Both the position numbers and the translations under genes were made by a program. DNA of 64,000 bases, taken from the NCBI RefSeq assembly GCF_029227915.1, contig NC_079882.1, positions 27,644,001 to 27,708,000 of the forward strand, written 5' to 3'. This document shows, in pieces, positions 9,848-60,812 of the stretch; positions within the stretch are counted from its first letter, which is position 1, and the number at the start of each line of letters is the position of its first letter. The notes under the pieces are model-generated. The model saw only the letters and a program-made list of their open reading frames with translations, did no database searches and had not been told where the DNA came from. Origin of the DNA: Hydractinia symbiolongicarpus. Lineage: Eukaryota; Cnidaria; Hydrozoa; Anthoathecata; Hydractiniidae.

Positions 9848-10095
9848 TTATGAATCAAGGACATATTTTCGAAGGGCTTTTTTCCGCTTTTTAGTAGGTT
9901 TGTTTTGCACTTCTTCGGGTACTTTTCCCATCCTCCTTAAGTGTCGAGAGTAACTCCTCTTCAAAACAAATAATTCGAATTTTTCATGCGTGTGCTTCTC
10001 ATCAAGCTCAGCTAGTTTTTCGCGAAAGGATTTTGAAAATTCTTCACCAATCTCATTGCATCCAACAATGTCTCTGTGTCGTGCCAACGAATGTT
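9848..10095 (-). CDS. Last exon: basic cytoplasmic tail
   Basis: This exon follows the M3 exon in phase 1 and ends at a stop at 9848-9850. It adds about 81 residues after the last membrane segment. The tail is highly charged, with an acidic-basic helix-like middle ([19 protein letters not shown]) and a terminal basic cluster ([12 protein letters not shown]). No PDZ ligand is obvious at the C-terminus. The basic cluster could be a membrane-lipid contact, an ER-retention signal or a nuclear-localisation-like signal; I cannot choose. Confidence 0.75.
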
Positions 10096-13000
10096 CTATA
10101 AAAAAAGTATTTTAATTTTTTGTTAAAAAAAAAGAAATGAAAAGCGAACACGTGTTGATATCACGTGATACATTTACAGACCAATTTAAAGAATTACAAA
10201 TAGAAAACCGGTTTGTTTTGAAAACTTATAGATGTAATTCTGGAATTCATAGCTGGAAAAGAAAATTTTTTAAGGTATAATAACCAGCAGTTTGCCCTCA
10301 TTTTTACAATACGATAAGCATTCATATAGTAATCGGCAAGTGCTACTGCAAAAAAATTTAAGTTCATGAATTGTCAGAAATATAATAAGGGCAAGTTAAT
10401 TGACAGTAGAAGGTCACAACGAGAAAATGTGACTACGTAAAATTTATATCAATAACAAAGATATTATCACTTTGTTCAATCGTTCATAAATTCACACGTC
10501 ATTTTAAAAAGCAGAAAACGTACTCTGTTTACAGCGGCCATTTAAAATACATATTTTTATATTAAAATGTTGAAACACTAACACAAAATCGCAAAAGATG
10601 CTGGATCGAGTTGTGCGAAACATGGAAAGTGGCCTTTAAATACTACATACACACTGCAAGCGCAGAGCATCAAGCGACAAAATATTGACACAAAGAAATT
10701 TGTTTCCTTATTTTTTAAATAAAAACAAAAGCTTCACACGGTGAATGCAGCTGGAAGGCTGCTCAGTCGCCCTATTTTGTACGCACCTTGGACAGGAAGA
10801 CAGTGTAAAAACAATGATAAGAAATTAAAAAAAAAATAACAACATTACCCATAGGTGCGATTTTTCGCCTGCTGCGATACGTTCTCCAACCATACCAAAT
10901 TATTACGCATACACAAGAGAGAATCAAATATGCGATGATCATATTCAAAACAAGTGAAGTGGATTCTTCAGGTGTCAGTAACATCTCCTCAACATCCAAT
11001 AATTGCGGCTAAAACAAAAGAAAGTACACCAGAAGTTAGCCGAGCACGTCTGTTTGTAAGCCAAATTAGTAGTTGTGCGTAAGGACGGGTGAATCGAGAA
11101 GGAATTTACTCCTTTTTTCTCCACGAGGTTTTTGCTGGTTTGTTCAAATTTTGTATACGTATGGCACGATAATCATTTGGAAAGAAATCTAACAAATGAA
11201 ACAGGAAGAATACGAATTTTTGTCGCAAATAGAAGCAAGGAGAAACATTTTGGACCCTATCTTTGTTTTATTCTTTGGCTTTTTTAGATTTACTTTTCTG
11301 TATGTTCTTAATTCTTCAAGATCTTGTCAAGAATAATGCCGTCAGTAAAGAAATGAACATTTGCTCATTTAACATGAGTAAAGACAAAAAAAATAAAAAA
11401 AATGATATCGGTCTATTTGAACTGATCTTATGTAGAGAGTGTGTATGGAGCTGTTAGAATAACAGGGTTTTTTTTGTCAATGCATAAGTTGTTCTACGTA
11501 ATCACAACCGTAAAACAGCAAGTTGCGTTAAAAATCATCCTGGAGAAATATGAAAGCAAGCACCTGCAACAATCCAATTTTTCTTTGCACAAAAAGTGAT
11601 ATTTCCGCTTGGTTAGATGAAACGAAACTTCGGACGTCGGTTTCTACTCTCTTAAACTCACCAGATAACACCACACCATAACCGCTGTTCAGGTCGAGTA
11701 TTTTATAGATTTTCACATTCATGTCGCTCAAACGTTTCTCGTACCCTTTTGTTGTGACTGCATCAATCAATCCAATCTCAACTTCTTGCCTCGAGACTGC
11801 ATCGATGACGTCAAGTACAGAAGTATAGTTTCTTGTGTCATCTAGGATGGCGTTACGAAGGATGGCTGTTCGATATTCAAACGAGTTTTTAATAGCAGCA
11901 ACCTAAAATATAAATTTTGGTTAATATGTAGTAACGCCGTCAAAGATAAAATTACCTGACCTCATCAAATCTTTTTGGCGTCTAAAAGTGACAGCCACAT
12001 AGTTTATTTAAAGGCGGATTTCCACTTAAACGAAAATAGTCCAACCAATCGACGCCGCTCAAGAAAAAGTCGAGAAATTATTCTTCTTCTGTGAATTTAT
12101 AAGCGAAGCAAAATCCACCCATTTTTTTCATAAACAATAGGCGATTGGAAGGCATTCTAAGTACTGTCCGGTTGTGTATTCGTATTTTTTAAATGAAGTA
12201 TTATTCCAAAAGTTATTAAGACGTATTTGAGATTCTTTGTGTGCAAAACAAAGGAATGACGGTTTGAATATTCTTATAAAAGATAAAAGATATTTTTTTT
12301 GTAACTAAAGCACATTTAAATAATTTCCTGATAAAATATCGCTAGTCGTCCCATTTAGCTGTTTTAAATGTTCACAAGCTTAATGGCTATCTAGGCGTCT
12401 TACGTTTCTGTCCAAAACGTTCTTGTCGCAATTAACCAGAGTAATTTAATAGGCTTCAAAACCTAACATGGTTTGTGGTCACAGGCCAAGTAGAATACTC
12501 TTTCTTCGTTTTTTCCAAGTGTAAATTAACAACAGAATTGGGTGCGTCACCATAGTGAATATATTGCAGTTACACCTTTTTAATAGCGAAATATTGATAG
12601 TTTATGCAGCCTCTGTATCTTCTTTTGCATCAATCAACGTTGATCGATTCACTGATTTCGTTTGAGTGGAAACCCTCTTTAACATAGCAGATAACATGTG
12701 AATGACTGTAACAGTTCCCACCAAATATCACTAGAAAAACCTGTTTTTATGGGCTCTTTAAAATAGACAATTATCGTTGACTTTCCGCGATCTTCGAGAA
12801 GTTCTGTTTATTACAAAGACTCTAAAAAACTTCTGTGCAACAACAACATTTAAAAAAGTACTTACTTTCGCCCCATACAGTTTATAGCTCTTCTCGAGTG
12901 AACTCACGCTCATGCCAGATGATACAGCACCACCAAAAATGCTGACCACGCATAAACCTGTTAGTATCCAGATAATCATTAATCCCTTACCAAGGTTAGA

Positions 13001-16000
13001 TGAAGGAACGTAATCTCCATATCTATTATAAGGTGAAATATTTAATACCTTCTTTAGTAGACACCAATTTTTTAAAGAAAGCACACGAAATTTTACCCGA
13101 GTGTCGTCATGGTGATAAACGAACACCAAAATCCTTCATAAGCACCATATATTGCCCGTTCTTGAGTCAAGTCGCTTTCCTCAGCTGTCTGGTCCTGAAA
13201 GTATATTAAGGTTCATTGCGAATTTAAGTTTAAATGAATTAATATTTATTAATTTATCTCTATATTATTTAAAATTTCAGTAACGAAAAAATAACAAAAA
13301 TAGCAATGGTTTTCAAGCATACTGATAAAAGGGAACGAAAGATGTTTTTAATTTCCCGCGTTTTTTTAAGAAATTTTGAAATAAAGTAGAGAAATACAGA
13401 TAACTCACGGCGAACCATAGTATCCATCCCATTATTGTAGCCAACAACACTGCAATCAAAATTACCGGCCAGGCTGCCGCTACTGCGGAGAGTATATTTA
13501 CAAATCCAACTGTGTTATAATCCGGCTGATACACCAGCATGGCGCTTCCTTGCGATGCCACAAAACCAACAAATGGATGCACACCACCAAAACGTGTCAA
13601 TGCAAACCTGCCAAAGATTGGTAATGATATATCAACATCATTGTTAAGATATTTTTTTACTCCCTCTACATTGTCTTTTTTGACACTCTTCCATCACGCG
13701 TTCGGTTGTAGTAAATTCTGGGCTTATATCCTTTGCAATCTACACATACAGCATTTACGACCATGGACATTAAATCCGGAAACAAGCCCTTGACAATGCC
13801 ATCTTGATTAGACCCAACTTGTTCAATGTAAGGTTTAATTTCGTACCAATTACTGAATAGATATTTTGGACATTTGCATGTTCCTATAAATAAATAATGA
13901 ATAAATGAATGAATGGATAATTGAATGAATGAGATATTTCATGCCAACTACAAAAATAATTCTAGAAATGAAGCAATTTCATACTCTTAAACAATCATAT
14001 CGTCATCTTGTAGCTACTTACGTCCATAAACCGTTGCTATTGGACCATCACCATACACTGAATATCCAAATATCTGAAATTCATAAGTCGTATAACTTTC
14101 CAATCCTTCCACTCTGTACATCGAAGTGTGTCTATCTAATATAATATCATTTACTGATTCCCCAACTAAATATATGCCTCCTTGTATGAATCTTTTGTAG
14201 AATATTCTGTACCCGGTTAAGAAACCATTCTCTTCTTCTTTAGGAATAAAATCCCAAGTAACTGTCAATTCTGTAGTTGAATAAAGGTCAATAGCTGTTG
14301 CATTTGGCGGTGGTACACCAGGAGCTAAAAAGATAATAAAAAGGATAATAACAAGAAAATTTCTTATGGAGCACTAAGCGGTATATGGAATTTTAGTTAA
14401 GGAATTAGATAATTAGATAGTCTCATTGAAATTTATTTATCAAAGTTCAAGATTCCAGATACATGTTAATCATGGAGGTCATTTTATTAACACATGAGTT
14501 ACCTCCAGGAGGGGTTCGGAACACAAACACTTCATGAGGGCCAACGCCTGCACTTGTATATCCAGCAACCTCAACCCAGTACCACGTGTATGCTTTGAAA
14601 CTCTCCACCGTTCTTTGCTCCATCGTGTTATCAACTAAAACTGTATGGTGTTTTTCTCCGTGGTATTTACGATAAGTAATGTTATACCCAAGTAAATTGC
14701 CAGGTACTTCGTGACTAGGAATGTGGTCCCATGAAAAATAAACTGTGTTAAAATCCATAATTTGATGGGTGCAAGATGGTGGTTTGATGTACGGCACTAC
14801 AAGAGAATGAAATGTATTAATTTAATATGTATTTAATTTAAGAGTGCTAATATGAAAAGCACTCACAGAACGAGGGATAAGACATTATAAAAAACCCTGA
14901 TGATGTTATACATGCCACAAAAAAGGAATATTTTCATTAAATACTCTACGAGAACGATGAAAATCGCCTAAACAAATGACATATCTCACCTCCTTCTATA
15001 GTTTGTATCTCAATGAGAGAACTTGCAACACCGTTTCCTGAACTAATTGCAGTTACCACGCGGATTTCATACCACGCCCCTGGTGTTAAGTCAATTATTG
15101 TGTACGTCAAATTGTTTGTGCCAAAATTATCCCATGGCACACTTCGATCGCGTGGTCGGTAATATACTTGATAAAGGTTGAGTGCTCCGTTCAATAAGGT
15201 TTGATTAATTGGGCTCCAGCTGACGTTGATTGAAAATGGAGTAGGAGAGAAGGCCATGACAGTTTTAACTGGTCCCGTTGGAACTAAAAAAGAAGATTCA
15301 TTAGTTACCATATAAATGGATTTATTTGTTCATTCAGATTTCTTATTATACTATACTAGACTGTAAAAAAAAAGAGCAAGGGTGAGAAAAACACATACGT
15401 GTATTGATAGAAATGTCCTCCAAAGATGTTGGCATGGTGTTAAGAAGACCATCTTCCACAGTATGTTGTAATACTAATGATTCGATACTTGGAACAGCAT
15501 CATATAAAATGCTAAATTGTACAATAACACTGCCTCGCCTGAATTAGTAAAAAAAAAATTCAAAATAATATAACTAATATAAGTGGAAAAAAATATTAAA
15601 GTGGTCTTTTAAACCAATAGAAATAATTTGATTCGATAAGTTAATGTAGCAATCCCATCTACTTACGACATTGACAGAAATTCAATCTCGACATTCTCGG
15701 TTTGTTTCGATACTTCACTGGCATTATAGAACACTCTTAACTGTAAAAACAAAACAAAAAACTGTGAAAAACATATCCCTAAAAATCTGTCAACAACCCG
15801 TAAACTCTGAAAATATAAATTTTTTTATTGATTTTTTTTATATATGTTTTGAAATATAAAGTCAAATAGCTTGTATATTATACTTGGAAATATCTTTTTA
15901 CTTGTAGACAAAAAAATTGAAATAATTAAAAACAACAACAACAACAACAATAAAAATCACAATAGCAAAATACAAACAAACAACCAAACAAAACAAGAAA

Positions 16001-19000
16001 ACAAAAAGAAACAAACAAATGGCCAATGATCTGCAGTTATGTCTCATGGCATTTTTCTAACATATATATGGTTAAAGCAGTATGCAGAAAAAACTCTTCT
16101 TTTACTTTTTAAAGTCAATGTCAATTTCGTACCCTTGAATAACAACTTTTTAAATCTTGTAATAAAAGCACGACAAGAATAAAAATCATTAGGTAACTCT
16201 CGAAAGTAACTTTTATTGCAACGACGATATAAGAATGGATAAAGCTGTCAAGATTAATGAAGGACATGCATTATATTTACGTATTACAATAATAATTATA
16301 AAATGTTATGACGCTGAAAATGGAATAGATAGTCATTATGAAAAAATTAATTATCCACTGATACTTTTTTGTTGAAGTTTTTCTGTATTTATATTTATAT
16401 ACTTCAGATGTACCTGTCTGGGTGATTAAAATAAATGCATATATCTTTAAATTACAAAATTACGCATAAAAAGAAAAATCAAAAAACCAACCTCTTTCTC
16501 AATCTTTTTACTCAAATTCACAGATTTCTCGTTTGTTATTTGATACATTGGAAACTCCCATGTCTCTTCAGTAAATCGTACAGTATAAACATATAAAGCA
16601 GCTGAAATAGAAAACTTGGAAAAATATTTGGGTATTTAAAAACAGTTTTATTCTTAGGTTAAAAATTAAATATATTTATTTTGATAATATTCTTTTGAGA
16701 ATGGAAATTGCTAATTTTATCTGACTCTGAATAATCTTGTAATCTGATACAAAATGTCCAAGGGATAGTCTGATCCCTTGGACATTTTGTAAACATAAAA
16801 AGCGTTTGAGGTGCATGTGGACTGTTTTCTCTATTCAATCGAAGTCACTTACGCAAACATATAGTATTCTCGCTACATGAAAAGTTTCTACTGTTCTTGC
16901 CAACGCAATCAGCACCTCCATAGAGCGGTGCAGGTTCATCACAATATCGTTTTTGAACTCGAACTCCATCAAATCCACAAGAATGTTTGCACTCTGAAAC
17001 TTCCTGCCAATCACCCCATTGTCCATGAACTATAAAAAGTAGAATTCAACATGGTTCTTAACATGGTCATTTAGAAACTTAGGAGAAATGTCAATACACA
17101 GCTTTGTTGAAAAATCTTTTTCTAAAAACCTTCAACAAGACAAGACAAGGTACTACATTTCGGGTTAAAATGTTTTATTGGAGAAACAGACAAAAGAAAT
17201 TTTTTGATACAAAATTGAAGTGAAAAAATAACAGAGTGATATTAAACACGTTTTACTAGTCAGTTTGTGAAGCTTGAGATGCAATATAACTTGTTTCACG
17301 CATCCAAGAGAAAACTAAGAAATACATTGAAATAATGAAAACTTTACTCTAAAAAAGAGCAAACTTTCATGAAATTTTATATACTGTAGACCTCTCAGTA
17401 TAAGCCCATTCGATTATAAGCGCCTTTTTGTATCAGCCTATTATTTATATCGTTGCTGACAAGTGTAGGCATTGCAAGAAAAATTAGAACATCAAGTGTA
17501 ATCTTAAATCCCGTAGAGAATTGATGAAAAGCAGATTTGCAGCTAATGTTTTGCAGAGGTGCAAATCCAAGACATTGTTGGTAACCAGGTAACATTGTTG
17601 GTAAACGGGTAACTAGATGTTTATACTGATTTGTTTGTTAGAAGACTACTAAAATCTCATGCGCTTTACCAGGTGTTTTTTTTATTTATTTCGTAAACTA
17701 TTTTTTGTTTCCCGAACTATAGCTTATAACCTATAAACCCACCCGTGTATAGACTCACACGCGTACAAACCCCCCACCCGTGCTTGTGCATGAGCTAATA
17801 ACCTGTGCTTAAGCCCACAATAAAAAGCTTATTAACTTGTACAAGCCAAGGGCTTATATTCAGAGATTTAAAGTAGCATTACCTGGACACGGCATTGGAT
17901 TGCATCCTTCTTTTATATCAATATTGTGGTCTCCGACACAATAAGATCCATTGAAAGCGGGAGCAGGTGAATCGCAGTTCCTGCTCCTTTGTTGATAACC
18001 AAAACCGCAAGTTGCTGAGCAATTAGACCAAGACGACCATCCACCCCACTCACCATCCACTAAATAACAAATTTAAATTGTTTTTAAAATAAAAATTAAT
18101 TATTTCTCTTGTAAAGAGGATAAGAATGTACCTGGGCAGGGGTGAACATTACAATCTCGTTTGTCCAGAGAAGTTCCAGTACAGCCTCCTGCAACAATAC
18201 ATTCTCTGTACCTTTGGTAACGTCCAGTACCACAATCTTTATTGCATAAGCCCCAATTAGCCCATTCTCTATATTGAGCCATCTCTGCAATAGGGAAAAA
18301 TAAAAATATTTCTTCAGAATAAAAGAGAATATTAGTTGTTTATAAACATTATTGAAAAAGTATATCACCTTTGTCGATACATCTACATAATCTCCTGACT
18401 GTGTTGTCTCCAGTAGCATCGCAATCGATTTTAACAGGCACATTAACATATCCCCGGCAAATACCGCTGCTTAGAACTAAGCTCGGATCATATTTTCGAG
18501 AATAAAAATTTGTCTGCACAGATGAGTTGCATTTTACATAGATGGTTCGAGTGTAATTATAACCATCAATAACGTCTTCAAAATACCTTGAAGTGTTTTG
18601 AAAATTTAAGTCCAAAGCACACCCAAACTCTTCTCCTAAGTTTTCGCATGTTGATCTGCAGTTATCTCCAGGTGTTGCTAAATAATACCCTGAAAAGAAA
18701 TTGCAGAAAATCAAAATTATGCAGGTGGAAGAAAACGACAACCCAATAAAATATCTTGAAGGTCAAACAATTAATCAAAATTTAGAGACGTTAAAGAAGT
18801 CTTTATTGGTGCTTACCTGGACATGGAAAGTCGTTACAAGGTCGGAATTCTTGTCTCTCTCCGGGACAATAGTCTCCACCTTCCTCTGGTTCAGGATTTG
18901 TACACCACCTTTGTCTCATTGCATATCCTAATCCACAACTCCTCGCACAGTTTCCCCAATTCGTCCATGATGTCCAGTTTCCATCAGCTTAATAAGAATT

Positions 19001-49000: not shown

Positions 49001-52000
49001 AACAATACAGTTAATACCACATCAACAAGATACTCATTTATACTACATAGACAGCCTAAAAAATGCAACAGCAAAAATACATAAATAATAACAACAATTT
49101 GCATCTAATCATTAGTTTGTTTGACTTACCAAATGTGTTGCATAAAACAACATCTAATTCCAGTTGAAAGAAGGACCCACGATAAGACACAGGGTAAATT
49201 CGTAAATGTTGAGCATAGATGGGGAAAGGAAAGGATAAATATTCAATTCCAGATTTACTTTTCCTAAATATCTAATAAAAAATATAAATCAATTGTAATG
49301 TAAAATATTTTTCCCCTTGGGCTTAATAAAATGTTTAGGCTTCATAAAATGTTAGTACAAATTACATAGGCTTTTGTTGTTCATTTCTACTGCAAAGTGC
49401 AGATACCGATTTTAGAGACAGGAGAATAATAAAGTGTTATGTTTAATAGTTTAAAAAGTTTTTAAATGATTGGCAACAGATATTTAAAAGCAACTGTAAA
49501 AAAGCTCTGAATTGTTGCCAAAAAAATAATTGTTTAATTGTTTGAAGGCGCATACAAAAAGAAAGTATTCTTTTGAAAGATTTTGCTTTCTATAATCAAC
49601 CAAAAAGCTAATTTTACATAGACAATAACAATCTTTATATAGTTATAATCTTGTGGATATACTCACAAGTTCACCACCATCTGCATTTGAAATGTTATGC
49701 CAAATCGTATAATTTACAGCATAACGTATGCTAAATTCATCCGCGTAGTATAAAGGGTGACTAGCAACTTTTATCATTGCTAGAAACAAAGTAACACCAA
49801 AATCAACCTCTAAATAATTTTCAGGACCATGACAGTTTCTCCACTGATCTTGTACATCAAAACTTGCTGCCGTTGCTGTGAGAGCATTGTCTGCACAAGA
49901 TACTCCAGGTTGTGAAAATTTTAGTGGTATTGGACTTCCGTATTGCAACTCGTAACATTCTAAAAATTTTTGTTGAATAATTTAAAATAATTTAGCAGAA
50001 TAAGATGGATAAAAACATATCACAACGCATAAATTATGTCATACTCAAGAAAGTGTTTGGAATTATCAAAGAAAACAAAAAAGAGTTATTTGACAAGAAT
50101 CTTTTAAGTTATGTATTCACGGGTAAGAAGAAAAATATAGGTAGATAAGTATCTTTGATTGATTTGTCAAGGTCTGAGCAAGAGATGAATGCAAGCTAAG
50201 TGCAGGCAAAGTCTATTTAACATTGAAACATATCCTTTTTAAAATGTGCAAATAAAAAAATCAGGAATTCCTTATGTTTTATATCTATACTCTCCTCTCC
50301 TTTGAAGAACATATTCTCATTAAATGTCCTAAGCATTTGTATATTACCAGTGAACACTGTAGAATAATCAGTTATTGCTAGTTTTTATTGATTTTTCTGG
50401 ATTTACAAAAGATTAAAGAGATGCAAAAAAATGTGAATTTGCATAAGGAAATAAACACTGAAATTCAAAAAATGCTTATTGGTAATGGCATGTCCCTTTG
50501 TCGTAGTACTCAACAGCCACAAATCTATTTGGGTGCTTTGGGGATAGCACACAATAATTATTTATTTTAAAAGAAGCTGTAATAAGTATGAAAATAACCA
50601 GGTGAATTATTTGGTTTAAAGGAAAACAGTAACATTAAATACTATATAATATATGTATAATGAAGATTTAAATCAAGACAGATATTATATTACCAACTTA
50701 AATTATAAAACCATTGTACTGTATTAAAAATGAAACATACCAAGTTTTTTTAATTGCATGGTATTTTTAGTGAAACAGTCCTCAACATGAGAAATTTCAG
50801 GTATATTTTTTATCCATAAGTAAAAACCTTTAAACCCCAATATCTCTGCAACTGTTGGTCAAAGATACATGATCCTATACATTTTCTTGATCAGTGTTCA
50901 AGAGCTATATGGAAAAAGGCAACAGGTTTACAAATTTCTAAAAAAACGTTCTTGTCTTCCAGTCTTTGGTAACAGCAGCAAAATTTTTAAACCCTTATAT
51001 TTCCTTAGGTGTTTTTCAACCTCTACACATTACAGGCAACAAATAAACTAAATTTCACCAATCTTTTTTGTATTTGCAGTGTTGACATCAGCAAAAATTT
51101 AAAGTAACATTATTTTTTATTGTCCTTCTGCCTACGTAGATTTCTCCATGGGGTTTATCAACTGGTTACTACAATAATTATGTTTTTCATCTTTTTTTAA
51201 AAAAAATTGTACTTAAAGGGATTTCAATATAATATAATTATGTTCCCAATTCATCAGTTTTTTTATTTCTGCAGTAATATATTAGACTAGTAGATAAGAA
51301 CCTTGAAAATATCCACTTAAGCAAAAAGAAATAAAAAAGGTCTATAATTTGAATTTACTTAGTGCACAAGAATAATTTTTCACAATTTTTAGCCATTATG
51401 TAGAGTTTGAAATATTAATCAAAATAATGTATAGGACCACAAGGTTTTGATCAGCACTTAAATAGATATAAAAGTTCAAACATTTTGCTGGTATCAGCAA
51501 AGTCGAAACAATATACCTAAAAAAAATATTTAGAAATTTGCTTACCCATTTGCTTATTGCATAGGGTTAGAAATGCTGTTTAAAAAAATTTATATGATGG
51601 TATCATTTTCTTGTCTGTTTTGAAACAGGTGATTGGCCAGACTTTGAAAAAATTTGTTCTAATTTGGTCCTAGGTGGTCCCTAGTTACCAGATTAGTAAA
51701 AAATAACTTATGGCACCATCCTGTCTTCAACATATATTTAGTGTCAAAGTTATAAGTGCATAGTAATAGCTTCATTGAATTAAATGAAGTTGTGTTGTGA
51801 AGTTTACTTTGTCAATTAGTATTTGAGAACTGCATTTTTCATCAATTTCAAAAAATTGAAATATCCGCTTATGTTTTTCACTAACGTAGCCTAATATATA
51901 TTGTATAAGATCCCAATTTTGGGGATTGTTAACCTATTCTTTTTAACATAGCAGAAATCAGAAGATATGTTAAAGCATCCTTATTTAGGTTGATGAAAAT

Positions 52001-55000
52001 TCAAATAGAATTGAAAATTACAGCTCACATCATCCTTATTCACAATTTTAATAAAACATATTTTTTTGGCATTCTTAATTTTGGCTAAGTTAATCTTTTC
52101 TTATACTATATTACTGTCAAATTTTATCAGTTCACCCTTATTAATGTCCCTGACAGGATTATCAATGCACAACAGAGACTGTAAAATATAAACTTTTTAC
52201 CATCACAAATTTGACGAGGTTGCACTTATCTTAATGAACAAGGAAACAATATAAACACCAAAGGTAAAAGACTAATTTTTAAATAAAAAAACATACCAAG
52301 ATTGACATGTTTGTTTAGCTTCCATGTCTTACCAGACAAAGCAATATCTTTCTCCTCTCCATTAAAAGGTTCGAAAACAATGACCAGTGATGTTCCATAA
52401 TGCCAATTTGGCATGTTAAAAACAGCTTGCAATAATGTTGACATACCAACAATCCTGTATGAGTCGAAAGCTCCTTTAACTAATACAATGCCTGACCTAT
52501 TTTCTTGAATGGATAAACTATTATATTCACAAAAAGCAACAAAATCTTGTGATTTATTGATATACATCGTAGCTTTTAACTTGAAGACTTCATCAGCAGA
52601 CCCAAAAGAAGATATCAACATATTAGTAGTTGATAAGACTGTTGCACCTCGTGCATTGTTAACTTCTTTAATGTATAAACCTAATTTCTTGTTTAAATTA
52701 AAATCTGCTTCGTTATTTGAGCATGTTCCATCCAATACTGCTGACAAGGGCATTACAAGATCGGTTTGCATCGTTCCATTTGGAATGTCAGTCACTGAAA
52801 AGTAATAGAAGTAAAAGAATGATATTTAACATTGTCATATAATTGCAATCACTGATTTTCACACAAAATAAAGATAGGCAAAAGTATCACAAAATTAATG
52901 CACAATAACACGCAAGTTAACCTATTAAAAAACATCGGGAAAATACATAAACTAATAATTTAGTTTAAATCGAATCCAAAGTGTAAACTGATTTTACCTT
53001 CTTTTAAGCTAAAAACATCAAAGGTTGTTTTGGTTATGTTAATACTCCCAACAATTTTTCAATATATCATTTTTAATATAGCTCTGTTTAAAGCAAATTT
53101 TAAAATAGATTTTTTTATTTTAAAATCTAAAATTTGTAAATATATTGTTTAGGAGTCTCAGAATGCTGAAACGTTAGCTAAATTTTGATTACAATTTTTT
53201 GGAAAGTGTTATTTCCATCCTCCCCTTATAGAAATAGGGTTAATAAGACAGAGTAAGTAATAATAACATACCCTTCGCAGAAAAAGAAACAGTAAGACCC
53301 GAACCACAATTGTCAGGGTTTACAATGCAATCATCTGAATCATAAGGTAGTGTCTTTAACTGAGATTTCAATGTCGAGTTAATAACCAAACCATCTGATT
53401 CTAGATATGCTCCTTCAACAGGAGAAAAATCTTGCATACTCTGTTTATCTTCAAAAGATCCAGTTAATGGCCAATGATGGGAAGCTTTAAATAAATGTTT
53501 TTTTGATAATAATTATAAAATATTAAAATATGTAGAAAACTATTAAAATTGAAAAGTCTAATCTGGCCTTAATAAGCTTTGAAATTATTTACAAGTTAAA
53601 ATGTTATGTTGGGAACAAGGTTTGTAATAATTAAGGACTCTTATTACGTTTTGTAATTGACTCCTCATATAACTCCACACTCATAGAGGATTTGCATGGT
53701 TGGCATCTTGGGTAAAACTCAATATATTCTGCAATCAAAGGATATTTAAAGATATATCTTGAATCTCCTTCCCCATCAGCATATGTGGACCAGACAGCCT
53801 ATTTAAAAAGCACTTAATAAAGTTAATAATTTGCTAACAATGTTTACTAAACAAAAATAACAAAACTGACCGTACATAACTATACATAATTGCTTCTTTG
53901 TACTCACCACTGGTTTGTTCGTCGGATAGTAGAAATCTTTCTTCTGAACACCAGTGTATGGCTTCTTGGACCAATAAGATTCCCCATAGTATATAAAAAA
54001 TCCTGTTGTGGAGTAGTCACTTGTGTATTTAAATTTACGAACAACAATAGAAGTCAGTTTTCTTTTTCGACCTAAATCAATTCCAAGCCAAACCTTTTTC
54101 TCAGTTTCTGTTTGGTAGTAGTCACTTCCTGAAATTCTCCAACCTTCAAATCGAGCTGTATTCAACCTTGCAGCATTTGCATTTAAGTAATTAGTAATTT
54201 CAGTCCCGCCATGTGACATTTGCGCATCACTTATGAGGCCACTTTGTAGACCAACAGGGGAAGCATCTACATGTTAAGAGATTTAATGAAATAAAGAATT
54301 ACCATGTTTAACGTTTTATGCAAAATGAAAGAAACATAGTACTTACATCCCCAATAAGGGCAACCATAAAGCTCAAATCTTGCATAAAAGTACGGAAAAG
54401 TGTAATTGTATTCAATTGGGATAAAAGAAACTTCCTTCGTGATTATAGCTTTATCAAACCAAACATAGTTTTCATCATTGCTTAATTTAAACACCTAAAA
54501 TATATAGTCATAAAATAATGATTACATAGCTGTTATAAATTATTATACTGCTCAGCAGAGTTTGTAGAGAAGTATTGCAGCGTACATGTAACATGCATGC
54601 CTTATAATATTTAAAAAGAAATATATTTACAAACTTGTTTACATGCCATGTTTGATTTGAACACATGAAAGGAAAGTTGTACATTATGTAACTTGTTTGA
54701 TGTAAACATCAAAACATCTAAACACATCTAAAACACATAGCGAATCATTTTTTTTTTGTACATAATCTATCTGCATTTTGCCGATTACATGACTTGTGAT
54801 GTATCAAAGAAATAATAACAAGAAAATATTTGCACATGCAAATTGTGTAAATTGGAAACTATTTACTTAAGATCATTGGGTTCATACAATTATTGTCATG
54901 TAAAGGCGTTTTAAAAACTTCATTTAGGCAGCACACTATATAAAGTTGTATAAAATATTTACATGTTGGAATTACAATTATGAAATAAAAAGTCATGGTA

Positions 55001-55717
55001 GATTTTTCTACATTTTCGACGTTTTTAAAGTTAATATAGAAAATACTTGAATTTTATCATAAACATTTAGTGTATTATTGGAATCATATGTGACAGTAAT
55101 TATTAAGTACATCTTCAATCAATATTGTTTTTAAACCAATGATTTAGTTTTGCAAAATCATGACACATCTTATTTAGCAAAAACATGGAAAGTAAACTTT
55201 ATTTTAAAGAGATTAAAGTTGCCATAATTGACAACGATAGTTAAATTCATTAATTTAAAGCACATTGTTTGAGAGATAAAATAAGTATTTTATGGCTTTA
55301 AGGTGGATAAGAAAATCACAAAAAGTTGGATGTGCATCAGTTTATTTTCTCATTGTGTTACTGTTAACATATTGTAAAAAAATAGATAAATGAAAAAACT
55401 TACAGTTGAATTAAAGCCATTTCTTTCAGACTCATAGCCAAATTTAATTGTCTTTATTCCACAATGCAAACATGTTTTTCCAGACTCGACAGCAAAGCCA
55501 GTGATAAGGCTGAACTGATTCAAATTAACTTTGTAATAACCATAGCTATTGTTATCGTAGCTACCACACCAATAACTTTTACTAGAAGAAATATTGTAGC
55601 GCACATATTTGCACTTATTTGCACAAGCATTGTCATTTGTCACACTTGGTGGTATAGTACAACTGATAGCATCGTCATAAATAGCACCATTTTCCAGGCC
55701 GAGTGGAGAGGTACATT
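9848..55717 (-). CDS. Giant multidomain receptor fused to iGluR-like K+-filter channel (5' end missing)
   Basis: About 53 exons, each bounded by AG and GT, can be read on the minus strand with matching phases, giving about 4,850 codons. Domain order is F5/8C x2, half-LamG, unknown module, F5/8C, six unknown ~120-residue modules with an embedded LamG, C-type lectin, unknown module, MAM, LamG, EGF, LamG, SEA, FnIII x9, TSP1, Cys-rich, TSP1 x3, SEA, FnIII x3, and then an ionotropic glutamate receptor-like channel with a GYGD filter and a basic tail. Nearly all module borders are phase-1 introns, as in shuffled extracellular proteins. The expected place is the plasma membrane with the modules outside. 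No signal-peptide exon was found upstream of 55717, so the N-terminus is incomplete. Evidence that all exons form one transcript is only phase continuity; a gene boundary between 30.6 and 32.6 kb is the main alternative. The S1 exon carries an apparent one-base frameshift. Confidence 0.6.
10849..11008 (-). CDS. Exon with M3 membrane helix of the channel
   Basis: The exon encodes an acidic lead ([10 protein letters not shown]) followed by a hydrophobic segment containing [20 protein letters not shown] and then the basic stop-transfer RTYRSRRK. This matches the third membrane segment that follows S2 in eukaryotic glutamate receptors. Acceptor at 11009-11010, donor at 10847-10848, phase 0 in and 1 out. 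The basic residues after the helix fit a cytoplasmic C-terminus. Confidence 0.82.
11564..11902 (-). CDS. S2 half of ligand-binding domain
   Basis: A single 113-codon exon, phase 0 to 0, lies between the pore helices and M3, which is the S2 position of ionotropic glutamate receptors. It contains [10 protein letters not shown], in which the Asp (codon 11762-11764) sits where glutamate receptors have the acidic residue that binds the ligand amino group. It also contains [10 protein letters not shown], which resembles the SGYGI strand near the end of S2. The domain is short for S2 (about 125-140 residues up to M3). The assignment rests on position plus these motifs. Which ligand it binds cannot be told. 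Confidence 0.65.
12866..13194 (-). CDS. Pore exons: P-loop with K+ filter, and M2
   Basis: Two exons, 13097-13194 and 12866-13022, join in phase 2 inside the selectivity filter. The P-loop reads [20 protein letters not shown] followed by YVPSSN, which is the canonical potassium-channel signature (T-x-x-T-x-G-Y-G-D plus the downstream Pro). The next segment, with [20 protein letters not shown], is the inner helix. It lacks the SYTANLAAF motif of animal AMPA/kainate/NMDA receptors. A GYGD filter in a glutamate-receptor frame is known from bacterial GluR0 and rotifer AvGluR1. Predicted property: K+-selective conduction. Confidence 0.88.
13409..13883 (-). CDS. S1 half of ligand-binding domain and M1, with apparent frameshift
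   Basis: The first part has Cys-rich iGluR-like sequence including [17 protein letters not shown]. After the shift it reads [20 protein letters not shown], where an Arg (codon 13592-13594) sits close to the ligand-carboxylate-binding Arg of S1, and then membrane segment M1 ([20 protein letters not shown]). Exon phase is 1 in and 0 out, but the length is one base short. The frames meet at a run of six A on the minus strand (T run 13676-13681 on plus). One extra A would make the exon continuous and give the phase required by the next exon. This is either a homopolymer base-call or assembly error, or a real null allele. Confidence 0.78.
14022..14324 (-). CDS. FnIII domain 12 (adjacent to channel)
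   Basis: A 101-codon exon, phase 1-1. FnIII hallmarks are VTWDFIP (Trp strand B), GYRIFYK (strand C Tyr), [15 protein letters not shown] (strand F) and YGDGP. This is the last extracellular fold before the channel's S1 half, so it probably sets the distance between ectodomain and ligand-binding domain. Confidence 0.88.
14503..14796 (-). CDS. FnIII domain 11
   Basis: A 98-codon exon, phase 1-1. It shows [19 protein letters not shown] and [18 protein letters not shown], the strand B, C and F signatures of FnIII. Confidence 0.9.
14990..15283 (-). CDS. FnIII domain 10
   Basis: A 98-codon exon, phase 1-1, beginning right after SEA-2. It shows [18 protein letters not shown] and [18 protein letters not shown], plus several N-x-S/T sequons. 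If SEA-2 self-cleaves, this is the first folded domain of the membrane-bound fragment after the SEA remnant. Confidence 0.9.
15399..16601 (-). CDS. SEA domain 2 with intact GSVIV autocleavage motif
   Basis: Three exons, 16492-16601 (phase 1 to 0), 15667-15740 (0 to 2) and 15399-15538 (2 to 1), encode about 108 residues with the SEA pattern: [10 protein letters not shown] at the start, KKIEKELRVFY helix, [20 protein letters not shown] hairpin, then a second helix. Gly-Ser-Val-Ile-Val at 15520-15534 matches the G|SVVV-type site where SEA domains such as that of MUC1 break themselves by an N-to-O acyl shift. Cleavage here would leave about 830 residues (FnIII x3 plus channel) attached non-covalently to the rest. 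Predicted from motif only. Confidence 0.85.
16748..16791. repeat. Intronic hairpin, 18-bp arms
   Basis: The arms at 16748-16765 and 16774-16791 are exact reverse complements with an 8-base spacer. It lies in the intron between the last TSP1 exon and SEA-2. Confidence 0.8.
16853..17029 (-). CDS. Thrombospondin type 1 repeat 4
   Basis: A 59-codon exon, phase 1-1. It starts [17 protein letters not shown] and has six Cys in TSP1 spacing. The usual WSxWS Trp ladder is reduced to two Trp. It is the TSP1 repeat closest to SEA-2. Confidence 0.85.
17883..18059 (-). CDS. Thrombospondin type 1 repeat 3
   Basis: A 59-codon exon, phase 1-1, and the most canonical TSP1 copy: [20 protein letters not shown], then an Arg-rich strand, ending [15 protein letters not shown] carries the C-mannosylation-type Trp motif, and CSATCG is followed by the Arg layer. 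Confidence 0.95.
18132..18284 (-). CDS. Thrombospondin type 1 repeat 2
   Basis: A 51-codon exon, phase 1-1: [20 protein letters not shown], six Cys, ending NVHPCPG. Slightly shorter than the neighbouring TSP1 copies. Confidence 0.9.
18369..18689 (-). CDS. Cys-rich domain between TSP1 repeats, unidentified
   Basis: A 107-codon exon, phase 1-1, with eight Cys ([19 protein letters not shown] at the start, CRCIDKG at the end) and several N-glycosylation sequons. It separates TSP1 repeat 1 from repeats 2-4. I do not recognise the family; the GDxCxxxC start resembles a Cys-rich unit seen near TSP1 or lectin modules in other marine invertebrate proteins, from memory only. Confidence 0.7.
18817..18987 (-). 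CDS. Thrombospondin type 1 repeat 1
   Basis: A 57-codon exon, phase 1-1: [20 protein letters not shown] with three Trp in WxxWxxW spacing, ending NDFPCPG. First TSP1 after the long FnIII array. Confidence 0.94.
19144..19455 (-). CDS. FnIII domain 9
   Basis: A 104-codon exon, phase 1-1: [11 protein letters not shown] start, LNISWIPLP strand [10 protein letters not shown] strand [17 protein letters not shown] strand F. It has a Cys pair ([10 protein letters not shown]) in the middle that FnIII domains usually lack. Confidence 0.92.
19533..19844 (-). CDS. FnIII domain 8
   Basis: A 104-codon exon, phase 1-1: [20 protein letters not shown] and [17 protein letters not shown]. FnIII hallmarks are clear and N-x-T/S sequons are frequent. 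Confidence 0.9.
20309..20602 (-). CDS. FnIII domain 7
   Basis: A 98-codon exon, phase 1-1: [12 protein letters not shown] start, [12 protein letters not shown] strand [17 protein letters not shown] strand F. Carries Cys in the C strand and F-G region. Confidence 0.9.
21192..21485 (-). CDS. FnIII domain 6, divergent
   Basis: A 98-codon exon, phase 1-1. The B-strand Trp is missing, but [16 protein letters not shown] matches strand F plus the G-x-G-P turn, and [13 protein letters not shown] matches strand C. It is called FnIII from these motifs and its place in the array. Confidence 0.75.
21950..22687 (-). CDS. FnIII domains 4 and 5 in one exon
   Basis: A single 246-codon exon, phase 1-1, holds two divergent FnIII-like units. 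The second begins [20 protein letters not shown] and ends near [16 protein letters not shown]. The first has a Cys-rich insertion near [12 protein letters not shown]. All the other FnIII domains read here have their own exon, so an intron has probably been lost. Dense N-glycosylation sequons. Confidence 0.75.
22761..23081 (-). CDS. FnIII domain 3
   Basis: A 107-codon exon, phase 1-1: [20 protein letters not shown] and [18 protein letters not shown]. Two Cys (LSCPYINV and ENCKHM) could form a domain-specific disulfide. Confidence 0.88.
23243..23569 (-). CDS. FnIII domain 2
   Basis: A 109-codon exon, phase 1-1: [20 protein letters not shown] and [20 protein letters not shown] are the B, C and F strand signatures. 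Confidence 0.9.
23868..24170 (-). CDS. FnIII domain 1, divergent
   Basis: A 101-codon exon, phase 1-1, directly after SEA-1. It has [12 protein letters not shown] (strand C) and [20 protein letters not shown] (strand F). The B-strand Trp is absent. Confidence 0.8.
24342..30231 (-). CDS. SEA domain 1 (three exons, LINE in its second intron)
   Basis: Exons 30113-30231 (1 to 0), 29828-29892 (0 to 2) and 24342-24493 (2 to 1) have exactly the same phase pattern as SEA-2. Landmarks are [16 protein letters not shown] (first strand), [20 protein letters not shown] (helix), [19 protein letters not shown] (hairpin) and then a second helix. The cleavage motif is degenerate: Gly-Thr-Val-Ser-Ala instead of Gly-Ser-Val-x-Val. 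Self-cleavage is therefore not expected. The 5.3-kb second intron contains the LINE at 24739-28543. Confidence 0.82.
24739..27045 (+). pseudogene. LINE ORF part 1: 2A-like motif, Zn finger, endonuclease, RT start
   Basis: 768 codons. Residues 41-62 are hydrophobic. Residues 115-123 read GDVESCPGP, like the 2A ribosome-skipping motif at the start of some LINE ORFs, but with Cys where Asn is required. Residues 127-171 are a C-x2-C ... H-x3-C ... C-x2-C zinc finger. Residues about 196-410 are an AP endonuclease with [16 protein letters not shown] and SISDHD catalytic blocks. The RT begins with [19 protein letters not shown] and YQYGF, then the frame breaks near 26990. The region that should hold the first catalytic Asp (F-x-DLSKAFD) is deleted, so this copy cannot make a working RT. 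Confidence 0.88.
27045..28019 (+). pseudogene. LINE ORF part 2: rest of RT and C-terminal domain
   Basis: After the break the protein resumes in another frame around 27040 with [17 protein letters not shown], then [14 protein letters not shown], the catalytic [10 protein letters not shown] and a C-terminal [11 protein letters not shown]-type end common to CR1/L2 elements. From 27177 the frame is open to the stop at 28017-28019. Confidence 0.85.
28020..29827. other. LINE 3' UTR, then SEA-1 intron
   Basis: 28020-28543 is the LINE 3' UTR with its (AAT)n end. The rest is intron of the receptor gene. It holds a 16-bp-arm inverted repeat at 29555-29597. Nothing else is recognised. Confidence 0.6.
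29555..29597. repeat. Intronic hairpin, 16-bp arms
   Basis: The arms at 29555-29570 and 29582-29597 (TAACAAGATACAAAAT and its complement) are exact, with an 11-base spacer. Confidence 0.75.
30583..30603 (-). CDS. Possible 21-bp micro-exon before SEA-1
   Basis: On the minus strand a T-rich tract ending AAG is followed by 21 bases encoding Asp-Glu-Leu-Ala-Lys-Lys in frame, then GTAAGA. The phase is 1 at both ends, exactly what SEA-1 exon 1 needs upstream. Short enough to be chance. Confidence 0.35.
30604..32581. other. Gap between SEA-1 and LamG-3; possible linker exon or gene boundary
   Basis: The only coding-like stretch is minus-strand 32108-32246, an open acidic Ser/Thr/Asn-rich peptide (for example [17 protein letters not shown]) ending at a good GTAAGT donor. 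Its phases (2 in, 0 out) do not fit the phase-1 neighbours, so extra small exons, or a separate transcript, would be needed. A dispersed repeat shared with 56 kb lies at 32358-32430. Confidence 0.4.
32358..32430. repeat. Dispersed repeat, second copy near 56 kb
   Basis: The segment matches 55993-56063 closely, including the shared core CCTGTTAAGGGATGTG and ATGCAT. Both copies lie in the same orientation. Family unknown. Confidence 0.65.
32582..33226 (-). CDS. LamG-like domain 4 of the protein (LamG-3), single exon
   Basis: A 215-codon exon, phase 1-1, with concanavalin A-like sandwich features: C-x-(6)[14 protein letters not shown], then [35 protein letters not shown] and the closing [11 protein letters not shown]. 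Two Cys near the start (CALDLEGC) are typical of the LamGL form found in invertebrate receptors. Last recognised module before the SEA-1 region. Confidence 0.82.
33398..33514 (-). CDS. EGF-like domain
   Basis: A 39-codon exon, phase 1-1: [20 protein letters not shown] then CP, with later Cys in ETCQNG. The CxNGGxCxxxxxxCxC core is that of an EGF-like repeat. No calcium-binding signature is seen. Confidence 0.85.
33607..35124 (-). CDS. LamG-like domain 3 of the protein (LamG-2), four exons with EGF after it
   Basis: Exons 34749-35124 (1 to 2), 34540-34651 (2 to 0) and 33607-33802 (0 to 1) form one LamG fold: [20 protein letters not shown] start, [31 protein letters not shown] and the closing [20 protein letters not shown]. 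The call says four exons only if the neighbouring EGF exon is counted; the fold itself uses three. Confidence 0.85.
33858..33970 (-). mobile_element. tRNA-derived SINE fragment
   Basis: The minus strand contains GGGTTCAAGTCCC, a tRNA T-arm/B-box, preceded by GGGCAACCAGTGCAGC. It lies in an intron between LamG-2 exons. Not a tRNA gene: no complete cloverleaf. Confidence 0.4.
35217..36786 (-). CDS. MAM domain, two exons
   Basis: Exons 36524-36786 (1 to 0) and 35217-35340 (0 to 1). [20 protein letters not shown] and [12 protein letters not shown] are the mid and C-terminal MAM blocks (usual form G-x-IAIDDI). The acceptor chosen at 36787-36788 follows a pyrimidine tract and gives the phase the upstream exon needs. 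The N-terminal MAM segment with its first Cys is short or missing. Confidence 0.8.
37535..38068 (-). CDS. Unrecognised ~178-residue module (X2)
   Basis: A 178-codon exon, phase 1-1. The predicted strands include [13 protein letters not shown] and the ending [12 protein letters not shown] ... MRLLVTYY. It resembles the exon at 52297-52794 in length, in the extended beta pattern and in an xxLL...F motif before a final hydrophobic strand. The pattern recalls DNRLRE-type beta sandwiches, but I cannot assign it. Confidence 0.65.
38619..38954 (-). CDS. C-type lectin domain
   Basis: A 112-codon exon, phase 1-1, with CTLD marks: [40 protein letters not shown], then DCAEFNP and [15 protein letters not shown]. 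The WxDGS block is clear. The EPN/QPD sugar-binding triplet is not evident, so carbohydrate binding is uncertain. Confidence 0.92.
39028..39737. mobile_element. piggyBac-like MITE, TTAA duplicated
   Basis: Terminal inverted repeats starting CCCTATTCGGTCC are at 39032-39050 and, reversed, 39715-39733. TTAA stands immediately outside both ends (39028-39031 and 39734-39737). A TTAA target with a CCC end is the hallmark of piggyBac-type elements. It is 702 bp with no transposase. It sits in the intron upstream of the C-type lectin exon. Similar half-ends occur near 38142 and 53228. Confidence 0.75.
39775..39900 (-). CDS. Short Cys-containing exon, unidentified
   Basis: A 42-codon exon, phase 1-1: [16 protein letters not shown] then [20 protein letters not shown]. 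Two Cys. It lies between the sixth 120-residue module and the C-type lectin domain and is probably the strand that introduces the lectin fold. Confidence 0.6.
40002..40373 (-). CDS. Unrecognised 120-residue module, copy 6
   Basis: A 124-codon exon, phase 1-1, with [20 protein letters not shown] followed by [19 protein letters not shown] and a final VEG. It carries the family signature C-x-x-F/D-F ... YILC ... G seen in five other exons. Propeller or tectonin-like by eye. Confidence 0.75.
40614..40979 (-). CDS. Unrecognised 120-residue module, copy 5
   Basis: A 122-codon exon, phase 1-1: [55 protein letters not shown]. The Cys of the C-terminal YILC motif is replaced. Confidence 0.75.
41121..41558 (-). 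CDS. LamG-like domain 2 of the protein, between module copies 4 and 5
   Basis: A 146-codon exon, phase 1-1: [20 protein letters not shown], then [15 protein letters not shown] and [12 protein letters not shown]. This is the second half of a pentraxin/LamG-like sandwich; the usual N-terminal half is short. Confidence 0.75.
41810..42163 (-). CDS. Unrecognised 120-residue module, copy 4
   Basis: A 118-codon exon, phase 1-1: [58 protein letters not shown]. The alternation of W/Y-x-x-DG-x-I-Y strands fits a beta-propeller blade. Confidence 0.75.
42296..42349. repeat. Intronic hairpin, 21-bp arms, next to a minisatellite
   Basis: The arms CAAATAGACATCTGACATAAA (42296-42316) and its exact complement (42329-42349) flank a 12-base loop. 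The 29-bp tandem repeat begins about ten bases later. Confidence 0.8.
42361..42537. repeat. Minisatellite, 29-bp unit, about six copies
   Basis: The unit contains CTTGGTGTTTCTATCTCTCT and GCTTATATA, repeated head to tail with only one or two substitutions per copy. It lies in an intron of the receptor gene. The near-identity of copies suggests recent expansion. Not a CRISPR array. Confidence 0.92.
42873..42919. repeat. Intronic hairpin, ~19-bp arms, one mismatch
   Basis: 42873-42891 and 42901-42919 pair with a single mismatch around a nine-base spacer. Confidence 0.7.
43953..44318 (-). CDS. Unrecognised 120-residue module, copy 3
   Basis: A 122-codon exon, phase 1-1: [55 protein letters not shown], ending LVPG. 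The family Cys residues in the last strand are replaced by hydrophobics. Confidence 0.75.
44510..44869 (-). CDS. Unrecognised 120-residue module, copy 2
   Basis: A 120-codon exon, phase 1-1, and the clearest copy: [33 protein letters not shown] then [25 protein letters not shown], ending PEG. The strand repeats recall tectonin-type beta-propellers. Confidence 0.78.
45755..47635 (+). mobile_element. RTE-type LINE, 5' truncated, frames broken
   Basis: Plus-strand RT-only fragment in an intron of the receptor gene. Three open blocks, about 45755-46420, 46404-47099 and 47135-47335, are shifted relative to each other. Landmarks: [77 protein letters not shown]. After the RT comes a zinc finger (CGVCRKG ... 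[12 protein letters not shown] ... CKCC), then YGSETWAVK. It ends in an (ATG)n tail near 47614-47634. The layout matches RTE-like elements common in corals and other invertebrates, recalled not searched. Non-functional. Confidence 0.85.
47636..48582. other. Intron, no recognised feature
   Basis: AT-rich sequence between the LINE tail and the first 120-residue module exon. I see no exon or repeat end here. Confidence 0.5.
48583..48984 (-). CDS. Unrecognised 120-residue module, copy 1
   Basis: A 134-codon exon, phase 1-1. The first half is Cys-rich ([19 protein letters not shown]) and unlike the other copies. The second half has [14 protein letters not shown] and [19 protein letters not shown], then SLPG, the family signature. 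Confidence 0.72.
49130..49959 (-). CDS. F5/8 type C (discoidin) domain 3, two exons
   Basis: Exons 49667-49959 (1 to 0) and 49130-49271 (0 to 1). It opens [12 protein letters not shown], has [19 protein letters not shown] (the W/Y-IDLG strand) and ends [20 protein letters not shown] then LDVVLC, the classical closing beta strand with Cys. Discoidin domains bind lipids, sugars or collagen. Confidence 0.88.
49960..52296. other. Long intron, no recognised feature
   Basis: About 2.3 kb of AT-rich sequence. A plus-strand ORF at 50388-50570 and others are short and have no motif. No exon with matching phase was found. Confidence 0.5.
52297..52794 (-). CDS. Unrecognised ~166-residue module (X1)
   Basis: A 166-codon exon, phase 1-1. 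Strand-like segments include [19 protein letters not shown] and [13 protein letters not shown], with the xxLLQAVF segment before the last strand as in X2 at 37.5 kb. It follows a half-LamG exon directly. Function unknown. Confidence 0.65.
53272..53484 (-). CDS. Half LamG-like exon
   Basis: A 71-codon exon, phase 1-1. [20 protein letters not shown] and [18 protein letters not shown] are the opening of a LamGL domain (HHWPL ... C-x-(6)-C-x-x-GLTVSFW). The second half of the fold is not the next exon; module X1 follows instead. Confidence 0.75.
53648..54266 (-). CDS. F5/8 type C (discoidin) domain 2, two exons
   Basis: Exons 53908-54266 (1 to 0) and 53648-53798 (0 to 1). [16 protein letters not shown] start, [20 protein letters not shown] core, end [20 protein letters not shown] then ELYEE. 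Same intron position as the other two discoidin domains, which supports duplication. Confidence 0.9.
54347..55717 (-). CDS. F5/8 type C (discoidin) domain 1, two exons (first recognised exons)
   Basis: Exons 55404-55717 (1 to 0) and 54347-54494 (0 to 1). [20 protein letters not shown] start, [20 protein letters not shown] core and [16 protein letters not shown] end. The exon starts in phase 1, so it cannot be the first coding exon: a signal-peptide exon must lie further upstream, outside what I could find. Confidence 0.88.
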
Positions 55718-60615: not shown

Positions 60616-60812
60616 TCATCATCATCATCATCATTCTCGGCTTAACGTCCGTTTTCCATGCTAGCATGGGTTGGACGGGGTATATTAAGACCCTCTTCCA
60701 ATCTGATCTAGACTGTGTTAGATCTAAACTCAACTTTCTCTCTATCAAGTCTGTCCTTATAACCTCCTGCCAAGTCTCTCTCGGTCTGCCTCTGGGCTTT
60801 GCCCCAGGAACT
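60616..60812 (-). mobile_element. 3' fragment of the RTE-type LINE
   Basis: Reverse-complement match to 47.43-47.63 kb, ending in the same trinucleotide tail, (ATC)n here. The copy is cut at about 60812, close to the start of the 60833-62474 element. Confidence 0.85.

Follow-up and report, generated by a model that had tools for sequence, protein, structure and literature searches.

The iGluRs of animals are familiar as cation channels gated by transmitters. A locus on C8 of the hydrozoan Hydractinia symbiolongicarpus raises the question of whether a receptor of this topology can carry a K+-type filter beneath an ectodomain made of adhesion modules and, if it does, how far that ectodomain extends. 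The window, i.e., the whole stretch of DNA that was analysed, covers 64,000 nucleotides (C8:27,644,001-27,708,000 of the 480.9-Mb assembly) and is AT-rich, with a GC content of 30-36% in 4-kb steps. A preliminary description of this DNA, made from its letters, proposed that about 53 minus-strand exons form one reading frame in which an adhesion-type ectodomain is fused to an iGluR-like K+ channel. We conclude, with a probability of roughly 0.8, that the window gene is a member of a family of channels with iGluR topology and a K+-type filter, whose ectodomains are built from phase-1 adhesion modules.

The exons were located with a home-made gene finder, trained on hand-picked open stretches of the minus strand of the window and run with higher penalties than its first version, followed by manual refinement. 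The result was a chain of closely spaced minus-strand exons, bordered by GT-AG, that reaches from 55,717 to the stop codon at 9,848 (Table 1). The chain bears out the earlier count: the model has 54 exons, one of them a 21-nt candidate, and a coding length of 14,516 nt, with phase 1-1 in 31 of the 54 exon entries. The exons match in phase, yet phase also served as a criterion in choosing them. Beyond the stop and upstream of 55,717 the finder continued with weak exons, which were dropped from the model; a candidate first coding exon was placed by the finder at 56,814-56,727. Splice sites along the chain are mostly good, with four weak acceptors (EGF, -2.9; discoidin-2b, -1.0; the second tectonin-like exon, 0.6; SEA-1a, 1.2). 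Over an extended stretch of 84 kb the minus strand scored 671 and the plus strand 84, a comparison biased by the training of the finder on minus-strand exons of the window, and the strong plus-strand exons sit in two retroelements. Despite this biased strand control, the exon chain together with its Pfam matches is an observation far beyond chance. An Rfam search of the window at gathering scores gave no match. Repeat copies with up to 96% identity are found at 60,615-60,810, 47,441-47,637 and 62,950-63,007.

The module list given earlier stands in part. Lectin_C, MAM, Laminin_G_3, fn3, TSP_1, the second SEA domain (SEA-2) and Ion_trans_2 were matched above the Pfam cut-off, while the three F5/8C (discoidin) domains, EGF, LamG4, the first SEA domain (SEA-1) and Lig_chan all fell below it. 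Six tectonin-like exons, at 48,984-40,002, were missing from the list.

Table 1. Predicted features of the window, in the order of the minus-strand gene model. Values are Pfam E-values unless stated otherwise.
Feature	Window positions	Strand	Details
Discoidin (F5/8 type C) x2	53648..55717	-	Exons 55717-55404, 54494-54347, 54266-53908, 53798-53648; F5_F8_type_C 1.1e-4 and 7.3e-4, below cut-off
LamG N-terminal-like exon	53272..53484	-	By eye; Pfam without match
Extracellular-type exon	52333..52794	-	Pfam without match
Third discoidin domain	49130..49959	-	Exons 49959-49667, 49271-49130; 1.1e-4, below cut-off
Tectonin-like beta-propeller exons 1-3 of six	48984-48583, 44869-44510, 44318-43953	-	
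Broken reverse-transcriptase element	45713..47332	+	In intron between first two tectonin-like exons; one frame also matches PHD-finger (2.5e-5)
Tectonin-like beta-propeller exons 4-6 of six	42163-41810, 40979-40614, 40373-40002	-	
Further exon, Pfam without match, within tectonin-like block 40002..48984	41558-41121	-	
Linker exon	39775..39900	-	
C-type lectin domain	38619..38954	-	Lectin_C 1.4e-9
Extracellular-type exon	37535..38068	-	
MAM domain	35217..36786	-	Exons 36786-36524, 35340-35217; MAM 1.3e-9, second half of profile only (positions 68-151 of 158)
LamG/ConA-like domain	33607..35124	-	Exons 35124-34749, 34651-34540, 33802-33607; Laminin_G_3 1.5e-10
EGF-like exon, six cysteines	33398..33514	-	EGF_2 0.13, below cut-off; weak acceptor
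LamG-like (LamG4), last upstream module	32582..33226	-	0.0066, below cut-off; strong donor, score 7.6
Junction: intron if fused, intergenic if two genes	30604..32581	-	
Candidate 21-nt exon ahead of SEA-1	30583..30603	-	Phase 1-1; score 14.0
SEA-1	24342..30231	-	Exons 30231-30113, 29892-29828, 24493-24342; split over 5.9 kb
Non-LTR retroelement	24688..28016	+	Endonuclease and reverse transcriptase in two overlapping frames; zinc-finger-like N-terminus (by eye); inside second SEA-1 intron
FnIII array, eight exons	19144..24170	-	Pfam fn3
TSP1 x4	16853..18987	-	18987-18817, 18284-18132, 18059-17883, 17029-16853; TSP_1 3e-10, and 1e-23 (three stretches)
Cysteine-rich exon among TSP1 repeats	18689-18369	-	
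SEA-2	15399..16601	-	Exons 16601-16492, 15740-15667, 15538-15399; SEA 9e-7
FnIII x3 adjoining channel	14022..15283	-	fn3 2.9e-27, three stretches
S1 + M1 exon	13409..13883	-	Changes frame in A run near 13,680
Pore + M3	12866..13194	-	Exons 13194-13097 (FITMTTLG), 13022-12866 (YGDYVPSS... M3)
S2 half of ligand-binding-type lobe	11564..11902	-	
M4 exon	10849..11008	-	Emerged only at low finder penalty
Basic C-terminus and stop	9848..10095	-	Last exon, placed by hand

The filter of the window channel reads TTLGYGD, with an intron falling inside GYG, and Ion_trans_2 matches the pore at 9.7e-12 (45.0 bits against a cut-off of 22.5). Its best solved-structure matches are K+ channels (KvAP, 4.3e-7), and the predicted pore would prefer K+. 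With an extracellular N-terminus, the pore would be inverted, its loop entering from the cytoplasmic side as in iGluRs. The Lig_chan match of the window channel, at 1.8e-5 and 25.0 bits, is below the cut-off of 30.8. The S1+S2 lobe by itself found no Pfam family at E-values up to 10 and no relevant PDB chain, and hhalign with a profile built from seven ordinary iGluRs of the same genome misses the window channel (probability 0.3%). Judged from the window member by itself, the iGluR assignment is weak. A search for prokaryotic relatives of the channel produced 25 pattern matches, of which none was confirmed.

Relatives in the same genome were sought in 260 kb of flanks (324 kb including the window) and at two of three sites with short M3 matches taken from a list of Lig_chan matches. 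That genome list holds at least 43 matches, and many of them lie in open frames some 300-500 aa long, so that ordinary iGluRs appear to be numerous here and often free of introns in that stretch. Both sites that were read (2/2) proved to be family members, termed CH3 and CH4, and a third relative, CH2, lies in the flanks. Because the Lig_chan list misses both the window gene and CH2, more members may exist. A short M3 match with two internal stops at C12:23,072,602-23,072,766 (minus strand) is a possible fifth member or a pseudogene.

CH2 lies on C8 at about 27.81 Mb, some 110 kb from the window gene and on the same strand. It reads FnIII exons (two tested, fn3 4.6e-15), S1, M1, TSTTVG/YGDKIP (the stroke marks the intron), M3, S2 and M4, preceded by an exon that by eye resembles part of a TSP1 repeat and has no Pfam match. 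From S1 to M4 it aligns throughout with its counterpart in the window, the two being 21% identical (E 2e-25, a pairwise and not a database value), so that the order S1-M1-P-M3-S2-M4, with segments named by eye, is present in both. Its Lig_chan score of 19.5 bits is below the 30.8 cut-off, only Ion_trans_2 exceeding its own. The gene finder split CH2 between two FnIII exons (a stop and a new start), and the extent of its ectodomain is uncertain. About 1 kb of simple repeat, translating as FIYL/FIHS repeats, stands ahead of CH2 (L032, ~5.5-6.6 kb).

CH3 (C12) carries five EGF repeats (EGF_CA 1e-36) ahead of S1, and its filter is MTTVG/YGDKAP. In CH4 (C13), S1 follows immediately on a stretch that by eye resembles a signal peptide, and the filter is MTTVG/YGDRTP. 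Both are above cut-off for Lig_chan over M1-P-M3 (7e-11 and 42.6 bits in CH3; 8.7e-9 and 35.8 bits in CH4) and for Ion_trans_2 (4.2e-15 and 4.8e-15), the latter family being above cut-off in all three relatives. GYGD is common to all four members, as is an intron that splits the first G codon of GYG between its second and third bases, which makes this intron a simple mark for finding orthologues. In CH4 (L036, C13) it appears to begin with GC and not GT. Since GYGD and the GYG intron occur in 4/4 members and two members exceed both cut-offs, we take the four for one family, iGluR-like channels that combine a K+ filter with ectodomains of different make-up. The three relatives in this genome, of which two carry FnIII or EGF modules ahead of the channel, show this to be a family trait. 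The part of the preliminary description that joined an adhesion-type region (SEA, FnIII, TSP1) to an iGluR-like K+-type channel was borne out.

The usual mode of ligand binding in iGluRs may be lost in this family. The motif R-x-x-x-[hydrophobic]-x-F-[ST] after the ligand arginine, which binds the alpha-carboxylate of the ligand, a pattern that we composed after inspecting ordinary iGluR sequences, occurs in 7/7 ordinary iGluRs (seven of eight fetched loci, the intron-split L002 being left out) and in 0/4 family members, of which CH3 and CH4 may have an incomplete S1. This difference is a hint, short of proof, against the usual mode of binding and makes amino-acid gating doubtful for the four members.

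Ahead of the channel, the ectodomain gives the channel half the order SEA-1, FnIII, TSP1 x4, SEA-2, FnIII x3, S1-M1-P-M3-S2-M4 and tail. That this half with FnIII and TSP1 is well supported, as was said earlier, agrees with its coherent exon chain (30,231-9,848) and its Pfam matches, fn3 covering nine stretches, some below cut-off. SEA-2 is above its cut-off (29.4 bits against 26.4) and includes the sequence GSVIV. Eight constructs of SEA-1 were tested in all, a one-codon variant of a listed candidate being left out. Pfam SEA matched only the construct with the middle exon 29892-29828, at E 0.0042 and 17.6 bits, below cut-off; the seven others (six other middle exons, one without any) had no SEA match. 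Because that one construct bridges the retroelement between 30.2 and 24.5 kb, the channel gene is predicted to extend to at least 30.2 kb.

Further upstream, between 55.7 and 32.6 kb, the modules are of adhesion and lectin type. The six tectonin-like exons have no Pfam match and align loosely among themselves (13-21% identity to the first). A structure model of one of them (pLDDT 85) had tectonin 2 as its best Foldseek match (E 4.3e-4), followed by fishelectin (3.8e-3) and many other propellers, and on this ranking the six look like blades of a lectin-type propeller. No relatives of the upstream half were found in the fetched flanks. Minus-strand exons of coding appearance were seen in the flank stretch L010, at ~2-7 kb of that stretch and ~12-17 kb past the window edge.

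Whether the upstream half belongs to the channel depends on the gap between LamG4 and SEA-1. The preliminary description took the join to depend on phase only; we agree, and phase itself carries almost no weight, since the module after a signal-peptide exon likewise begins in phase 1. The gap (32,581-30,232) measures 2.35 kb on the same strand, or 1.98 + 0.35 kb if one counts the 21-nt exon. It is among the longer gaps of the chain, three of which exceed it (2.4, 3.7 and 5.6 kb, the last becoming 5.3 kb with exon 29892-29828), and the two longest contain retroelements. On the minus strand at 1-9.8 kb and 56-76 kb no finder exon scored 16 or more. A search for a hidden stop and start in the gap gave nothing above controls in a test of low power, in which the true last channel exon scored 8.2 and the best false one in the junction 6.0: the best stop-plus-start pair reached 7.1, and among seven domain-splitting introns of at least 300 bp four were higher (8.8, 8.4, 7.8, 14.3) and three lower (6.4, 2.5, none). 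Signal-like starts are as frequent elsewhere (14 in 14.7 kb, 30 in 23.1 kb, 4 in 6.1 kb, 6 in 8.3 kb) as in the gap (2 in 2.35 kb), and the nine poly(A)-like motifs in 2 kb of the gap are uninformative. As to the 21-nt exon, three null strands of 64 kb each yielded no phase 1-1 candidate scoring 14 or more, and the seven minus-strand candidates above 14 are all inside model exons. It may nevertheless be false, since short plus-strand exons of other phases score 14.0 and 13.9, and it does not itself reach LamG4.

Taking these points together, we rather favour the upstream half as the far end of the same protein. This estimate is a judgement, not a computed value, in which a short same-strand gap is weighed against two independent genes. 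The short gap, the sparse flanks, the lack of a stop or start exon above controls, the strong LamG4 donor and the 21-nt phase 1-1 exon count for the join, and the weak SEA-1a acceptor and relatives without such modules in the stretches read count against it. The competing reading, to which we leave a substantial minority of the probability, places two genes in tandem on one strand, the first for a secreted adhesion or lectin protein (55.7-32.6 kb) and the second for a SEA-FnIII-TSP1 channel with a K+ filter (starting at 30.6 or 30.2 kb and ending at 9.8 kb). Matching phase would then be the ordinary outcome of phase-1 modules, expected either way. A signal-like start exon does lie in the gap at 31453-31396, with a weak donor and in the company of equally frequent starts elsewhere. 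The relatives could be cited for two genes as well, with EGF repeats in CH3, the signal-like stretch of CH4 immediately before S1, and no upstream-half match in about 30 kb ahead of the first recognised exon of CH2. However, the gap has no terminal or initial exon that stands out from the control introns, and it is short for so sparse a stretch. In tblastn searches the upstream half had no convincing match in the stretches read (~30 kb upstream of CH2, 3.6 kb before S1 of CH3 and ~2 kb before the start of CH4), which neither favours nor rules against the larger fusion.

Two further readings concern the channel itself. The earlier claim of one reading frame fails at the S1 exon, where the frame changes within a run of six A (window 13,670-13,690, minus strand); this change reflects either a faulty assembly, a polymorphism or the decay of the gene. 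A decaying copy, i.e., a pseudogene, would also account for the large retroelement in the SEA-1 intron and the four weak acceptors, and CH2 is open over the stretch that matches the frame change. However, the remaining model exons are open with mostly good splice sites, and a change in homopolymer length is a common error of long-read assembly, so we regard decay as improbable. More improbable still is a channel unrelated to iGluRs, in which an ordinary K+-channel pore has been fused to extracellular modules. The K+ channels as best matches among solved structures, the S1 and S2 unrecognised by themselves and the low Lig_chan scores of the window channel and CH2 all lean that way, but over M1-P-M3 the Lig_chan scores of CH3 and CH4 lie above the cut-off, the alignment of CH2 with the window channel takes in S1, M1, pore, M3, S2 and M4, and an extracellular N-terminus would force the inverted iGluR topology.

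If the window gene is a K+-filter channel of iGluR topology, as we favour, its ectodomain hints at contact or matrix sensing, as do those of its family, and contact gating may be predicted. The adhesion array outside would set the state of the S1-S2 clamshell, which would then open or shut a K+-favouring pore. SEA domains cleave themselves at the site G/SVVV, which GSVIV of SEA-2 resembles, so that the ectodomain may be cleaved and held on the channel as a force-releasable subunit. The upstream half, if joined, would add three discoidin modules and tectonin-like lectin, C-type lectin, MAM, LamG and EGF modules. The fullest version is a single receptor of ~4,840 residues with the whole module set from discoidin to K+-filter iGluR-type channel and no usual amino-acid binding, in which contact with glycans, cells or matrix, perhaps through a cleaved SEA hinge, would directly set K+ conductance, within a family of interchangeable ectodomains; we hold it tentatively, at somewhat less than even odds. 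A family with a K+-type filter, varied adhesion modules and no usual ligand motif would be a candidate for connecting contact, glycans or matrix directly to membrane voltage in an early lineage of animals.

Large modular adhesion ectodomains, possibly self-cleaved, are carried on a membrane unit by adhesion GPCRs and SEA-domain mucins; here, the membrane unit would be an ion channel. Conventional metazoan iGluRs (NMDA, AKDF, epsilon) have the same topology as the window channel. The ordinary iGluRs of this genome, at seven loci, differ in holding M1 to M3 in one open frame of 324-396 aa together with the arginine motif, and the sole one aligned (L001) has no GYG, unlike the family members.

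Adhesion ectodomains on K+-filter iGluRs were not met in a limited literature search, from which we claim no absence from print. The combination of a K+ filter with an iGluR was held in 2010 to be bacterial only, according to an excerpt of that paper (PMC2950845), and K+-filter iGluRs are already known from cyanobacteria and a rotifer, as excerpted from PMC12332018. AvGluR1 of the rotifer Adineta vaga has eukaryotic iGluR architecture with a K+-filter signature (excerpts of PMC12332018, PMC3483616); those excerpts mention no adhesion ectodomain, which the window channel has. A rotifer iGluR with a K+-type filter is said in PMC3483616 to be permeable to Na+, and K+ conductance of the window channel remains a prediction. 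The cyanobacterial GluR0 is described in excerpts as a glutamate-activated K+-selective channel with the filter TXVGYG (PMC12332018; group 1 of PMC2950845), and the window channel shares this K+-type GYG filter. GluR0 has two transmembrane segments only (same excerpt of PMC12332018), whereas the window channel adds M4, a tail and adhesion modules, and the canonical arginine motif was not found in it. If our reading is true, the family would stand midway between the K+-type glutamate receptors of bacteria and the iGluRs of animals.
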